The notes beneath the pieces were generated by a model. It had not been told where the DNA came from. It made no database searches and was given only the letters and a program-made list of their open reading frames with translations. The position numbers and the translations under genes were made by a program. A stretch of DNA of 64,000 bases, from the NCBI RefSeq assembly GCF_018362995.1, contig NZ_CP074372.1, positions 4,154,001 through 4,218,000 of the forward strand. Direction: 5' to 3'. Each line of letters opens with the position of its first letter. Positions within the stretch are counted from its first letter, which is position 1. This document shows positions 46,488 to 51,252 of the stretch, piece after piece. This DNA is from Chryseobacterium indologenes. Its GTDB lineage: Bacteria > Bacteroidota > Bacteroidia > Flavobacteriales > Weeksellaceae.

Positions 46488-47198
46488 ATGGTGGGTTATT
46501 ATATCATTATTGGTATTTCAATGCTGGTGAGCTGGTGGGTTTCTTCCAGGTTGAAATCGAAATTTGAATATTATTCCAATGTACACCTTCGAAATGGCCT
46601 TTCGGGGAAAGAAGTAGCGGAAAAAATGTTGAGAGATAACGGGATAAATGATGTTCAGGTAATATCAGTTCCCGGGCAGTTGACGGACCACTATAATCCG
46701 GCAGATAAAACAGTGAACCTTTCTGAAGGGGTTTATATGCAGAGAAATGCCGCTGCAGCTGCAGTAGCAGCACATGAATGCGGACACGCAGTACAGCATG
46801 CGGTAGGATATTCTATGTTGAATTTACGTTCAAAACTGGTTCCTATTGTTAATATAAGCTCTAATCTGATGCAATTTGTCCTTATAGCGGGTATCGCGGT
46901 AATGGCTGCATCAAGAACTATGGAGAATCCCAATGGAAATACAACCGTTCTTGCCATTGGAGTTGCGATGTTTGCTGTGACAACACTTTTTGCTTTTGTA
47001 ACACTTCCGGTGGAATATGATGCAAGTAACAGAGCTATGAAATGGCTTAAAGATACAGGAACTGTAACTGCAGAAGAATTTGTAGGAGTACAGGACAGCT
47101 TGAAATGGGCCGCAAGAACGTATGTGGTAGCAGCCTTAGGTTCTCTGGCACAGCTTCTTTACTGGGGATCATTGCTTCTTGGTGGAAGAAGGGATTAA
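46488..47198 (+). CDS. YugP-type membrane zinc metallopeptidase
   Basis: A 236-residue inner-membrane protein of the Zn_peptidase_2 (PF04298, YugP) family. It has an N-terminal transmembrane helix, the zinc motif AAHECGHAVQHA (HExxH, about residues 96-107), a middle pair of helices (about 126-170) and the downstream EYDASNRAMKWL glutamate region, followed by a C-terminal helix. Substrate unknown. It is divergent from the GNAT-like gene and its stop overlaps the convergent yigZ stop by four bases. Confidence 0.9.
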   Translation: MVGYYIIIGISMLVSWWVSSRLKSKFEYYSNVHLRNGLSGKEVAEKMLRDNGINDVQVISVPGQLTDHYNPADKTVNLSEGVYMQRNAAAAAVAAHECGHAVQHAVGYSMLNLRSKLVPIVNISSNLMQFVLIAGIAVMAASRTMENPNGNTTVLAIGVAMFAVTTLFAFVTLPVEYDASNRAMKWLKDTGTVTAEEFVGVQDSLKWAARTYVVAALGSLAQLLYWGSLLLGGRRD

Positions 47199-47800
47199 TC
47201 ATTAAATTCAAATGAAACATATTGCATCTCGGAGAGTTTTTCCGAGATGTTTTCTTTTTGTGCAAGCTTCAGCGAGGCTGTAAGGATGCAGTTTTCATTA
47301 GCATCAAAATTCAAAACCTTGGCATCAAATTTTGAAAGCAGGGTAAATATTGTATTCTGCTGACTAAAATTGAACTGAATCTCTATCTCTGTTTCCAGCT
47401 CACGGGTAATAATCTGTGCTTCTTCCAATGTGATCTTTGCAGATTCCTTGTAAGTCTTTACCAATCCTGAAACTCCTAGTTTGGTTCCTCCATAATAACG
47501 GACTACAATCACAAGAATATTGGTAACCTCGTTAGCCAACAACTGATTGTAAATAGGTAATCCCGCACTTCCGGAAGGTTCGCCATCATCATTGGCGCGA
47601 TAGTTTTCACCATGTAATCCCATTCTGAAGGCATAACAGTGGTGGGTAGCTTTCGGATGTTCTTCCCTTATTTTTTCCAGTGCGCTCTTTAGTTCTCTTT
47701 CATTGGTTACCGGGAAAGCAAATCCGATAAACTTGCTTCCTTTTTCCTTTAAAAGAGTATTTTCTATGGGTTTTTCTATGGTTTTGTATTCAAACGTCAT
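47195..47800 (-). CDS. yigZ: YigZ/IMPACT family protein
   Basis: A 201-residue protein with an N-terminal UPF0029/Impact domain: KGSKFIGFAFPV, KATHHCYAFRMG and the signature ANDDGEPSGSAGLPIYNQL (about residues 73-91), then VRYYGGTKLGVSGLVKTY. The C-terminal DUF1949 domain (about 135-195) has the ferredoxin-like fold expected. The role in bacteria is not settled; eukaryotic IMPACT regulates translation. Its -7 element is at 47824-47831. Confidence 0.92.
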   Translation of the reverse strand: MTFEYKTIEKPIENTLLKEKGSKFIGFAFPVTNERELKSALEKIREEHPKATHHCYAFRMGLHGENYRANDDGEPSGSAGLPIYNQLLANEVTNILVIVVRYYGGTKLGVSGLVKTYKESAKITLEEAQIITRELETEIEIQFNFSQQNTIFTLLSKFDAKVLNFDANENCILTASLKLAQKENISEKLSEMQYVSFEFND

Positions 47801-47823
47801 TGTGAATTCCGGCTTTAATTATG

Positions 47824-47831
47824 CAAAAATA
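47824..47831 (-). promoter_or_regulatory. -7 promoter element for yigZ
   Basis: TATTTTTG on the minus strand fits TAnnTTTG and ends 23 bases before ATG 47800. Confidence 0.55.
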
Positions 47832-47867
47832 TTAAATGCTTTAGTATTCTGCATCATGATCATAAAT

Positions 47868-47902
47868 TAAGCCGTCAGAATTTGACGGCTTATCTTTTTT
47901 TT
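47868..47902. terminator. hairpin between yigZ and the peptide genes
   Basis: TAAGCCGTCA (47868-47877) pairs with TGACGGCTTA (47883-47892) around a five-base loop. A T8 run follows on the plus strand, but the gene that ends nearby (47919) is on the minus strand, where the run precedes the stem. It is probably the 3' end of the peptide transcript. Confidence 0.6.
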
Positions 47903-47918
47903 ATGTAAAATTACACTT

Positions 47919-48101
47919 TTACATTGCATCTCCGCACAGATCCATTGGGATCAGACACATATAACTTGTCGGACCGCAAAAATCCTGAGGACATTGATCT
48001 CTACATCGTGTAGGTTGTCCGGTAGGTAGGATACATGTTACAAAAACACCTCCTTTGATGATTTTCATATTGGCTCTGGATACCTTGTTCAAATTTTTCA
48101 T
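47919..48101 (-). CDS. Cys-rich double-glycine-leader peptide precursor (bacteriocin-like), downstream copy
   Basis: A 60-residue precursor. An 18-residue leader, MKNLNKVSRANMKIIKGG, ends in a double glycine, the usual cleavage site for C39-type ABC exporters. The 42-residue core has six cysteines (C23, C33, C37, C42, C49, C56). The leader style is that of the abundant Chryseobacterium bacteriocin-like proteins of unknown function. A frame from 48152 adds 17 residues that overlap the upstream peptide gene, so ATG 48101 is preferred. No exporter or modifying enzyme is adjacent. Confidence 0.8.
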   Translation of the reverse strand: MKNLNKVSRANMKIIKGGVFVTCILPTGQPTRCRDQCPQDFCGPTSYMCLIPMDLCGDAM

Positions 48102-48132
48102 GGTAATATTTTGTTTGATTATTTCGAGAATA

Positions 48133-48297
48133 TTAACATGGGAATGTTCCATCTGCCCATGGTGGCGGACAGCTCATACTTGAAGGCGTTGCGCAGCAGT
48201 GCTGTAATGAAGGGGGATAAAATGAGCAGCATTCAGGAGCGTTTCCTCCGTTTACTTTTTTTAAACTCTGTCTTGAAACTTTCTTTAAATTTTTCAT
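48133..48297 (-). CDS. Cys-rich double-glycine-leader peptide precursor (bacteriocin-like), upstream copy
   Basis: A 54-residue precursor with leader MKNLKKVSRQSLKKVNGG and a 36-residue core with six cysteines (C23-C24, C34-C35, C43, C54), four Pro-rich turns, and a C-terminal Cys. The leader matches its neighbour at 11 of 18 positions while the core is unrelated apart from Cys number. The stop lies 31 bases before the next peptide's ATG, so they are one transcription unit. It begins 63 bases after the ribD stop. I worked this frame out by hand translation. Confidence 0.8.
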   Translation of the reverse strand: MKNLKKVSRQSLKKVNGGNAPECCSFYPPSLQHCCATPSSMSCPPPWADGTFPC

Positions 48298-48317
48298 AGT
48301 AATTTTTTTTTGTATAA

Positions 48318-48325
48318 CTAATGTA
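48318..48325 (-). promoter_or_regulatory. weak -7-like element before the peptide genes
   Basis: TACATTAG on the minus strand differs from TAnnTTTG at one position and ends 20 bases before ATG 48297. Read-through from ribD is the alternative. Confidence 0.3.
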
Positions 48326-48360
48326 AAGAAATTATTTCATTCACTGGTGATAAAGTGCTT

Positions 48361-49386
48361 TTATTTTAGTCTGAAGAAAGAAACCGTATTGTCTCTGAAA
48401 TTTTCAATTTTAGTTGCTGTATGGTTGAATTCAGGTGCTTTTGTTCCTTTTTCCAGTTTCAGATTTTCATTTTTGATGACTATAGCTTCGTCCCAGAGGT
48501 TAGCATTGATAAACTGCTGCAGTGTAAAACGGCCGCCTTCAATAATCACAGACTGTATTTGTTCCTTATACAATGCTTCCATAAGCTCAGGCAGGAAATT
48601 TTCCTTATTGATTTTAATGAATTGGATAGATCCTTCGGTACCTTCTTTTACACTATTTAAAACCAATGTTTTTGCTTCATCATTGTAAATGTTGTAACCG
48701 GAAGGAACTTTTAAATCAAAATCAATGAGAATTCTTACAGGGTTTGTTCCTTCTGCATTTCTTACGGTAAGACTCGGGTTATCATTTAAGGCAGTTTGGG
48801 TTCCTACTAAAATAGCATGTTCGTCAGCTCTTAACTGGTGAACAAACTGATTCACGAGAGTGTTAGAAACAGCTGTTGGTTTAAAATCTTTATCCAAAAA
48901 GCCATCACCGGACTCTGCCCATTTTAAGATAATGTAAGGTCTTTTCTTTTCATGGTAAGTGAAAAACCTTTTATTAAGCTCAATACATTCTTGTTCAAGA
49001 ATTCCTGAAACGGCCTCAATTCCTGCATCCTGGATGATTTTCTTTCCTTTGCCATTTACTTTATCATGTGAATCCATAGCGCCAATAACTACTTTTTTAA
49101 ATCCTAATTCTTTAATCTTTAAAGCACAAGGTGGTGTTTTTCCAAAGTGTGCACAGGGCTCCAGCGAAACATAGATCGTGGATTCCGGAATAAGATCTTT
49201 GTTTTTAACGGAATTGATGGCATTGATCTCAGCATGGTTTTCTCCGGCTTTATGATGATAGCCTTCACCAATGATCTCCCCGTTGTGTACAATTACGCTT
49301 CCTACAAGAGGGTTGGGGTAGGTTTTGCCAAGAGCTTTCTGAGCCAGCTCAATACATCTTTTGATATACAGTTCGTTGTTGTTCAT
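48361..49386 (-). CDS. ribD: bifunctional riboflavin deaminase/reductase RibD
   Basis: A 341-residue enzyme for two early steps of riboflavin synthesis. The N-terminal deaminase domain has the zinc site HAE (H51, E53) and LEPCAHFGKTPPC (C78, C87). The C-terminal reductase domain includes RPYIILKWAESGDGFL, the NADPH region LVGTQTALNDNPSLTVR and SVIIEGGRFTLQQFI. ATG 49386 is preferred over 49413, which adds only a hydrophobic stub. The peptide genes follow 63 bases downstream. Confidence 0.96.
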   Translation of the reverse strand: MNNNELYIKRCIELAQKALGKTYPNPLVGSVIVHNGEIIGEGYHHKAGENHAEINAINSVKNKDLIPESTIYVSLEPCAHFGKTPPCALKIKELGFKKVVIGAMDSHDKVNGKGKKIIQDAGIEAVSGILEQECIELNKRFFTYHEKKRPYIILKWAESGDGFLDKDFKPTAVSNTLVNQFVHQLRADEHAILVGTQTALNDNPSLTVRNAEGTNPVRILIDFDLKVPSGYNIYNDEAKTLVLNSVKEGTEGSIQFIKINKENFLPELMEALYKEQIQSVIIEGGRFTLQQFINANLWDEAIVIKNENLKLEKGTKAPEFNHTATKIENFRDNTVSFFRLK

Positions 49387-49449
49387 ATTGATAAAAAGAA
49401 AAAGCGAAGACAAATTGCTTTGCTCCGCCTTTATTTATTTTGTTATCTG

Positions 49450-51252
49450 TTAATCTCCGCTGATAATACTGTGGAGATTCTGCTTTAATGTTTCCAGATG
49501 AGCTTTTTTCTCATCAATGGTGTTGTAAGTGTCTCTTAAAAGAGGATTTTCCCTTGATGGTTTGTTGAAGAAAGAAAGGTTATTTTCCAGTTTTACAATT
49601 TCAGCTTCAAGATCAGAAATCTGGTTTTTGATCTTTCTTGCTTTGTCAGTAAGTTGGTTTTCAGACAGACCTTCTTCTTTTAGTTCAAGCTCGTTGATTT
49701 TGTTTATTTTCAATTTTTCTCTTAATGTCTTGTTGAATTCAGAGTTGATTGAAATTTTATCTCTAGGAACTTTACCGATGTTGTTCCATGATGTTTTGAT
49801 CTGCTCAATTCTTTCGATACTGCCTTCTTCATTGGAAACCAGTTTCAACTCATCAAGAAGTACTTTTTTGTTTTTATAGTTTTCTTTCCAGTTATCAGTG
49901 GAAGTATTGCTTTTCTCTCTGTAGTTGTTGAAGAATGCATTACATGCATCACGGAATTCATCCCAGATCTTGTTGGTCATGCTCTTTGGAACGTGGCCTA
50001 CTTTTTTCCAGTCTTCCTGCAGTTTTTTGAATAATGGAACTGAAATATCCCATTCTTCATTGTTCATATTATCCTGGGCCGTCTGGATCAGTTTTAATTT
50101 CTCTTCAAGATTCGCTTGCTGTGAACCTTTCAACGATTTGTAATAATTATTTTTCGTTGTATTAAAACCTCTGAGTGTTGTTTTGAAATCATTCCAGTTT
50201 TGGTTGGATAATTTTCTTGGAACACTTCCGGTTTTTAAGAATTCAGAGCGTAGATCTTCAACTCTTTTGATGGCATTTTGCCAGTAGTTGTGATTAGGCG
50301 TTTCTGATGGTTCAGAAAGTTTCTTAATTTCAGCGATGATCTCGTTTTTCTTTTCAAGATTTACAGTCTGCTCTTTTTCAATAGAAGCAGAAAGTTCGGA
50401 TTTTCTCTCGTGAATTTTGTTGGAAATTTCTTTGAATTCTTCCCATGTTTTTTCACGGAATTCCTCTGCAACAGGCTCAGCTTCTTCTTTCCAAAGTTTA
50501 TGAAGGTATTGAAGCTCATTTAAAGCCTTCTGGATCACCGGTTCGTTTTCCAGTTCCTTAGCACGTGCAATGATATGCTCTCTCTTTTCAAGGTTGTGAC
50601 TGTATTCCTGCTCCAGAAATTCTTTATTCAGATCCAGCATCTGGTAAAATTGGTTCAGGTGGTGGAAGTAGTTGTTATTAAGAATTTTGAATTCAGATTT
50701 TGCAACCTGTCCGGCTTTTGACCAGTCTTCTTTAATTTCACGGATAGATTTGAAAAGATTGATTCCCGGTTCAGAACTGGTATATAGATTTTTAAGTCTT
50801 TCAATAATGTTTTGACGGTGTTCAAGGTTTTTCTTCTGCTCTTCTTCCTGTCCTTTCTGGAAGCTGTCATGTTTCTCCTTGAAAATATTGACCAATGCAG
50901 AATATTTAGTCTGAGAAGGGTGCTCATAGCTGAAGTTTTCAGCAGGATTTCCGGCTTCTATATATTCATGCTTTTTATCCTCCACTTCATCATGGATATA
51001 GTGACTTGCTTTTTCCTTCAGCAGGTTGAATCTTTTGAAATTCTCGCCGGCATTGGGAGTGTTGATGATTTTCTCCATTTCCTTTAAAGCATCAGTCAGG
51101 GAAATTTCTACCTCTTCATGTTCTTCCAGGTGTTCTGCATCATCTTCATGTCGGTTTGCATCATGAGAAACGGTGTTTTCTGATGGGTCCTGAGATACTT
51201 CGTTAGGATTGTTCTTTTCTTCGTTTTCAGAAAGATTGTTTTCTGTAGTCAT
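49450..51252 (-). CDS. DUF349 repeat protein
   Basis: A 600-residue, highly charged, largely helical protein. After an acidic, low-complexity N-terminus (about residues 1-60) come several DUF349 repeats of about 75 residues, each with a W-K-x-x-G-x-V/x-P/A-K or similar core (SKAGQVAKSEF, KTGSVPRKLSNQNWNDF, KKVGHVPKSMTNKIWDEF, NNIGKVPRDKISIN). The function of DUF349 is unknown. It probably forms extended coiled coils. A longer frame from 51309 is not preferred; the ATG at 51252 starts a typical MTTENN terminus. Confidence 0.88.
   Translation of the reverse strand: MTTENNLSENEEKNNPNEVSQDPSENTVSHDANRHEDDAEHLEEHEEVEISLTDALKEMEKIINTPNAGENFKRFNLLKEKASHYIHDEVEDKKHEYIEAGNPAENFSYEHPSQTKYSALVNIFKEKHDSFQKGQEEEQKKNLEHRQNIIERLKNLYTSSEPGINLFKSIREIKEDWSKAGQVAKSEFKILNNNYFHHLNQFYQMLDLNKEFLEQEYSHNLEKREHIIARAKELENEPVIQKALNELQYLHKLWKEEAEPVAEEFREKTWEEFKEISNKIHERKSELSASIEKEQTVNLEKKNEIIAEIKKLSEPSETPNHNYWQNAIKRVEDLRSEFLKTGSVPRKLSNQNWNDFKTTLRGFNTTKNNYYKSLKGSQQANLEEKLKLIQTAQDNMNNEEWDISVPLFKKLQEDWKKVGHVPKSMTNKIWDEFRDACNAFFNNYREKSNTSTDNWKENYKNKKVLLDELKLVSNEEGSIERIEQIKTSWNNIGKVPRDKISINSEFNKTLREKLKINKINELELKEEGLSENQLTDKARKIKNQISDLEAEIVKLENNLSFFNKPSRENPLLRDTYNTIDEKKAHLETLKQNLHSIISGD

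Follow-up and report, generated by a model that had tools for sequence, protein, structure and literature searches.

In Chryseobacterium indologenes, two adjacent short genes, here designated P1 and P2, probably code for orphan precursors of small disulfide peptides, which would be matured in trans by one hub for export and oxidation. The genes were identified in a window of 64,000 nucleotides, which is the whole stretch of DNA that was analysed (NCBI RefSeq assembly GCF_018362995.1, contig NZ_CP074372.1, positions 4,154,001 to 4,218,000). The leader family to which they are assigned has already been named; what is new is the proposed picture of an unlinked, genome-wide set of disulfide peptides with one export and oxidation hub. 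This reading is carried by a shared leader, by co-occurrence across genomes, by gene neighbourhood, by even cysteine counts and by purifying selection, all of which were derived from sequences.

The coordinates, the lengths, the double-glycine leaders and the unrelated six-cysteine cores of the pair, as given in a preliminary description of this DNA, were exact on re-reading of the sequence (Table 1). The two leaders are identical at 11 of 18 positions. In the P1 core the cysteines are located at core positions 5, 6, 16, 17, 25 and 36, and in the P2 core at positions 5, 15, 19, 24, 31 and 38. A frame of 77 amino acids for P2, beginning at 48152, was rejected, its start not being the conserved one. 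Searches of Pfam and PHROG with both precursors gave zero matches, as did a sequence search of the PDB with P1. The PDB match of P2 was a ribosomal protein (E 0.43) and was discarded, and the predicted structure of P2, based on 13 sequences, had a mean pLDDT of 49 and was not used.

Table 1. Coordinates of the precursor genes, their surroundings and the unlinked features discussed in the text. Plain numbers are window positions; other positions carry the name of their record.
Feature	Position	Strand	Description
P1 precursor gene	48133..48297	-	54 aa; 18-aa leader ending in GG and 36-aa core with 6 Cys (ORF list)
P1 leader	48244..48297	-	MKNLKKVSRQSLKKVNGG; cleavage predicted after GG from the sequence
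P2 precursor gene	47919..48101	-	60 aa; 18-aa leader ending in GG and 42-aa core with 6 Cys (ORF list)
P2 leader	48048..48101	-	MKNLNKVSRANMKIIKGG; cleavage predicted after GG from the sequence
ribD	48361..49413	-	upstream neighbour bounding the cassette slot; Pfam RibD_C and dCMP_cyt_deam_1; upstream of yigZ in most of 30 loci
yigZ/UPF0029	47195..47800	-	downstream neighbour; Pfam UPF0029; present in 59 of 59 genus genomes searched
Hairpin	47868..47892	both	26 nt beyond the P2 stop; terminator-like, T run stronger on +
Full C39 exporter	G000:C1 4093060-4095255	-	731 aa; C39, ABC membrane and ATPase domains
VKOR-thioredoxin oxidase	L041:13444-14955	-	Pfam VKOR and Thioredoxin_4
Stand-alone C39 peptidase	G000:C1 3588812-3589372 (L042:6813-7373)		186 aa; lipoprotein-like N-terminus
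DUF805b before leader genes, above gathering score	G000:C1 2865949, 2916129, 3223879, 3224225, 3248765, 3872235, 4093021, 1577622
DUF805b before leader gene, below gathering score	G000:C1 4068658

For the NCBIfam model NF047798 (leader_Chryseo, bacteriocin-like protein) a cut-off of 23.5 bits has been curated. P1 reached 34.2 bits by hmmscan and 35.0 bits in the genome search, and P2 lies at the cut-off, with 23.2 and 24.2 bits, respectively. Of 12 P2 homologues found, nine were scanned, and all nine scored above the cut-off (27.8-35.2 bits). Among 14 control genomes, eight gave a match at E<=10 and none a match above the cut-off. By these scores, the leader of P1 belongs to NF047798 and that of P2 very probably does, which makes the two peptides new members of a leader family already named by NCBI. 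The model describes the same 18-residue GG leader and spans these 18 positions only; it is silent on the core, the exporter, oxidation and a tested function. The function of the family had been described as not established, and among the matches listed from the open-licence literature no paper on the function of leader_Chryseo was found, though the family itself already carries a name. A similar leader is present in NF047792 (CCPGW family putative bacteriocin), for which P1 scored 14.4 and P2 21.6 bits. Membership in this family was rejected, the cut-off being 80 bits and the CCPGW motif being absent from both cores.

The pair is located between ribD and yigZ, the product of the latter being of the IMPACT type. 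By Pfam, the seven nearest genes code for RibD, UPF0029/YigZ, a zinc peptidase, a GNAT protein, a DUF349 protein, shikimate dehydrogenase and endonuclease I, and all seven look housekeeping or ordinary. Thus, no exporter and no modification enzyme adjoins the pair among these seven neighbours, as had been noted before. The same scan revealed no adjoining regulator or receptor gene, and no immunity gene was seen beside P1 and P2, the direct neighbours being ribD and yigZ. Two terminator-like hairpins were found, compared to a mean of 0.5 in shuffles. With such a hairpin just beyond P2, the pair might be transcribed together as one short RNA, of which the hairpin would be a possible end.

Relatives of both peptides were sought among 5.8 billion proteins, and seven relatives of P1 and 12 of P2 were identified which align through the core. 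The six cysteines of P1 are invariant in all eight rows of its alignment. Of the six in P2, five are invariant across 13 rows, and the sixth is lost in one relative, P0019. The region upstream of yigZ was inspected in 30 of the 59 genus genomes, namely those with the best yigZ scores, our own included, with 1.5 kb read in each. At least one leader peptide was present at 20 of the 30 loci: both P1 and P2 in six cases, P2 without P1 in ten, P1 without P2 in two and only other peptides in two. Because of this distribution, a two-peptide bacteriocin composed of P1 and P2 is not favoured. In three of the ten loci without a leader peptide, the gap is empty and ribD lies at a distance of 24-99 bp; one locus is cut by a contig end, and six are without ribD in the flank.

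By pooled pairwise Nei-Gojobori counts, in which silent sites are near saturation and pairs are not independent, the dN/dS of the core was 0.065 for P1 (8 orthologous sequences) and 0.095 for P2 (16 orthologous sequences; own included in both), the orthologues being located in the corresponding gap between ribD and yigZ of relatives, and that of the leader in the same sequences was 0.144 and 0.102, respectively. Because of the low core values, P1 and P2 are, as judged from their sequences, real genes with cores under purifying selection. The preliminary description had proposed a conserved leader with a hypervariable core. This holds between paralogues, the cores of which differ; between orthologues the cores stay alike, and at the P1/P2 locus the core is conserved at least as well as the leader.

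It had further been proposed to search the genome for more leaders and for C39 ABC exporters, and both were found. In the 5.0-Mb chromosome, NF047798 gave 53 matches at E<=10, 30 of them above the cut-off. With the three weakest matches dropped, a set of 50 precursors was compiled, which includes P1 and P2; they are 39-94 amino acids long, and one was read from a codon before its likely start. Two cysteines are present in three of the cores, three in two, four in 16, five in one, six in 24 and eight in four. The count is therefore even in 47 of 50 cores (binomial p 1.9e-11), in 36 of 39 after clustering of similar cores (p 1.8e-8) and in 28 of the 30 above the NF047798 cut-off, which fits paired cysteines as in disulfides. 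Cysteine makes up 13.2% of the cores, compared to 0.76% in 39 long frames of the window. In eight other precursor regions inspected by eye, the neighbours look housekeeping, and neither a modifying enzyme nor an immunity gene was recognised. One of the 50 peptides (G000:C1 3872145-3872008) has, as read here, no ATG and three cysteines and resembles the precursor at 3870743; it is probably a decayed copy or fragment. Of all 49 other precursors, the one next to the exporter (G000:C1 4092999) resembles P1 most, with a local score of 61 compared to 42 for the runner-up; the two cores failed the clustering threshold, and their kinship is tentative.

As a separate observation, at least nine leader_Chryseo-type genes, including the precursor of the exporter locus, are preceded by DUF805b RNA (Rfam RF02914), at a distance of about 20 nt from the start codon (Table 1). 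Leader genes follow eight of the 12 copies above the gathering score and nine of all 17 matches, with 150 of 3965 first-look candidates scored. Other copies in this genome (L100, L101, L103, L109, L112, L114 and L115 of G000) precede larger frames, which by eye are caspase-like, phage tail-collar-like and others, with no common theme. In a scan of named genomes, which covered 80 of at least 117 stretches and 82 sites, the RNA stands, at 14 of 14 loci titled Chryseobacterium, before a small peptide whose leader is, by eye, of the GG, GS or AG kind. Outside the genus it precedes mostly other genes, and there it is not specific to leader peptides. In the literature, no paper was recognised as describing DUF805b or DUF805 RNA. 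As a regulator of P1 and P2 the RNA was rejected, with no match within 47100-49500 of the window.

The Pfam C39 peptidase domain was identified at two places in the genome. One is the only full C39 ABC exporter, the gene of which ends about 107 kb from P1 and is unlinked to the pair, in line with the earlier expectation that processing would depend on a system elsewhere. This exporter keeps the C39 motifs with the predicted catalytic residues Q10, C16, H90 and D107, as well as the Walker and signature motifs. On the minus strand, the order of the locus is a VKOR-thioredoxin fusion (503 aa), the exporter, a precursor, an HlyD adaptor (432 aa), a second precursor and a GLPGLI protein. With NF047798, the precursor next to the exporter scored 20.8 bits, below the cut-off, and the second 35.0 bits, above it. 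In another genome (G013), the stretch of about 1.1 kb that precedes the exporter contains three leader precursors. The GG leaders of P1 and P2 are of a type that C39 transporters export. The exporter appears to serve about 50 scattered precursor genes; leader_Chryseo-type precursors lie beside it, and it is the candidate partner of the distant P1 and P2. The second C39 protein, of 186 amino acids, might process double-glycine peptides apart from the exporter, and similar short C39 proteins are also present in a few relatives.

The oxidase contains the CxxC of its VKOR domain, two loop cysteines and the CGFC of its Thioredoxin_4 domain, and all six cysteines are invariant in 36 homologues. At least 13 of 120 listed records of its relatives bear the name 'ABC transporter permease', a label which hides the likely role of the oxidase. 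A degenerate C39 leader-binding domain in the oxidase was not supported by profile, pairwise or model tests. The N-terminal part matched a C39 profile, built from only two C39 sequences, with a probability of 0.1%, and the shuffled pairwise z was 3.0, compared to 3.1 and 3.3 for two exporter control segments. In the model of the homologue P0022 (mean pLDDT 61), the first 118 residues are mostly below 50, so that a C39-like fold of this part is at most a conjecture.

Among the 59 genus genomes, leaders were identified at E<=0.002 in 55 (7-49 each) and some C39 match in 58. Of the four leaderless genomes, G011 and G056 are without an exporter orthologue and G028 and G052 keep it. Among 197 genomes of the family, leaders were present in 64, an exporter-C39 match (E<=1e-50, a threshold set after the scores were seen) in 72 and the oxidase (E<=1e-25) in 65. 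Leader and exporter occurred together in 60 genomes, the leader only in four (G074, G114, G161 and G179), the exporter only in 12 and neither in 121; for leader and oxidase the numbers were 60, four, five and 128. Neither comparison is corrected for ancestry, and since related species share ancestry, Fisher values overstate independence. At the looser threshold of E<=1e-25, the exporter-C39 match was found in 94 of 197 genomes, including 62 of the 64 with leaders. Of the 50 genus members among the 197, 48 contain leader, exporter and oxidase, and G186 and G203 contain none of them at the thresholds used. Outside the genus, the corresponding numbers (both, leader only, other only, neither) were 12, 4, 12 and 119 for the exporter and 12, 4, 5 and 126 for the oxidase. 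The distance between oxidase and exporter, counted in 63 genomes with G061 and G114 omitted, was less than 8 kb in 58 (less than 3 kb in 50) and 9-13 kb in two, and in three the genes were on other contigs.

In the proposed mechanism, the exporter would recognise the shared leader_Chryseo signal, cut after the double glycine and, in the same step, move the core out of the cell together with the HlyD adaptor. The VKOR-thioredoxin fusion would then oxidise the core cysteines to three disulfides. The predicted mature products, with their neutral monoisotopic masses, are NAPEC...FPC for P1 (36 aa; 3824.46 Da) and VFVTC...DAM for P2 (42 aa; 4618.97 Da). The cores would be separate cassettes, which come and go in the gaps between housekeeping genes and are maintained by selection. 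Against such a hub stand the four of 64 leader-bearing genomes without an exporter orthologue at E<=1e-50 and the four without the oxidase, the 12 genomes with an exporter and the five with an oxidase but without leaders, the second C39 protein, which could also act, and the exporter-adjacent precursor with its score below the leader cut-off.

A single trans-acting machine for many scattered precursors with one leader is known from prochlorosin-type and NHLP systems, in which the peptides are modified by LanM or other enzymes. Compared to these, the P1/P2 set indicates only cleavage, export and disulfide formation. Another likeness is found in the bacteroidetocins, for which a class IIf was proposed. 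According to PMC6671954, their regions contain the peptide, a C39 ABC exporter, a five-TM protein and, in most, a thiol oxidoreductase, deletion of whose gene lowers activity; the leader is 15-16 residues long and ends in GG, and no obvious immunity gene is described. Both systems share the phylum Bacteroidota, a GG leader, a cysteine-containing core, the lack of an obvious immunity gene and, if the candidate hub serves P1 and P2, a C39 ABC transporter with a thiol oxidoreductase, and the bacteroidetocin core of 42 residues equals the P2 core in length. However, the P1 and P2 leaders have 18 residues and the cores six cysteines, compared to four in bacteroidetocins A and B, and the four-gene region with its own transporter described there contrasts with about 50 mostly unlinked precursors which appear to share one hub. 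No such genes are present among the seven neighbours of P1 and P2, exporter and oxidase being about 107 kb away. As for double-glycine (class II-type) bacteriocins in general, the GG leader is present in both peptides and the adjacent immunity gene is absent from the locus. The most likely, if weakly supported, use of the peptides would be antagonism toward other Bacteroidota, which is perhaps best taken as a guess from the bacteroidetocins.

Instead of weapons, the peptides could be signals (pheromones) or serve the cell's own envelope or metal handling, which is possible but rather doubtful. The strong conservation of each orthologous core is consistent with such a role, as are the scattering of about 50 genes per genome and the housekeeping-like surroundings of the eight regions inspected, in which no immunity gene was recognised. 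However, no regulator or receptor gene adjoins P1 and P2, the slot is patchy (a leader peptide at 20 and the pair at 6 of 30 loci) and very many cores are unrelated. Patchy presence and many unrelated cores are more typical of weapons.

It is unlikely that the cores are modified RiPPs, with thioether, heterocycle or iron-enzyme chemistry on the cysteines and the enzyme encoded elsewhere. The weak match of P2 to TIGR04149 (rSAM-modified RiPP) would point in this direction, but with 12.2 bits it is below the cut-off of 25, and no modifying enzyme was identified beside P1 and P2 by Pfam or recognised by eye in the eight other regions. Among the genes of the exporter locus is one for a disulfide oxidase, and even cysteine counts fit disulfides. 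In Chryseobacterium, an iron-dependent enzyme, ChrH, does modify a RiPP, according to PMC12636315. That the pair is what remains of a formerly active cassette, in decay or no longer expressed, is very improbable, since the P2 leader at the model cut-off (23.2 compared to 23.5 bits) and the cysteine lost in P0019 are set against intact frames, six cysteines kept in 15 other P2 and seven other P1 sequences, and a core dN/dS of about 0.07-0.10 over 8 and 16 sequences.

With maturation in trans by one hub as the preferred reading, we lean, with some reserve, to the broader view that the genus and some relatives hold a venom-like library, in which dozens of unrelated disulfide peptides, encoded genome-wide and mostly by orphan cassettes amid housekeeping genes, would share one leader and one hub, and P1 and P2 would be two cassettes of one slot, the occupants of which turn over between species. 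The usual search for secreted peptides looks for clusters that include the exporter; in this genome, most precursors sit apart from it and, at 39-94 amino acids, are easily missed. If the reading is true, the removal of two genes, for exporter and oxidase, would test about 50 disulfide peptides at once, and the genus would offer disulfide scaffolds which carry a leader tag by nature and share a single route of production.
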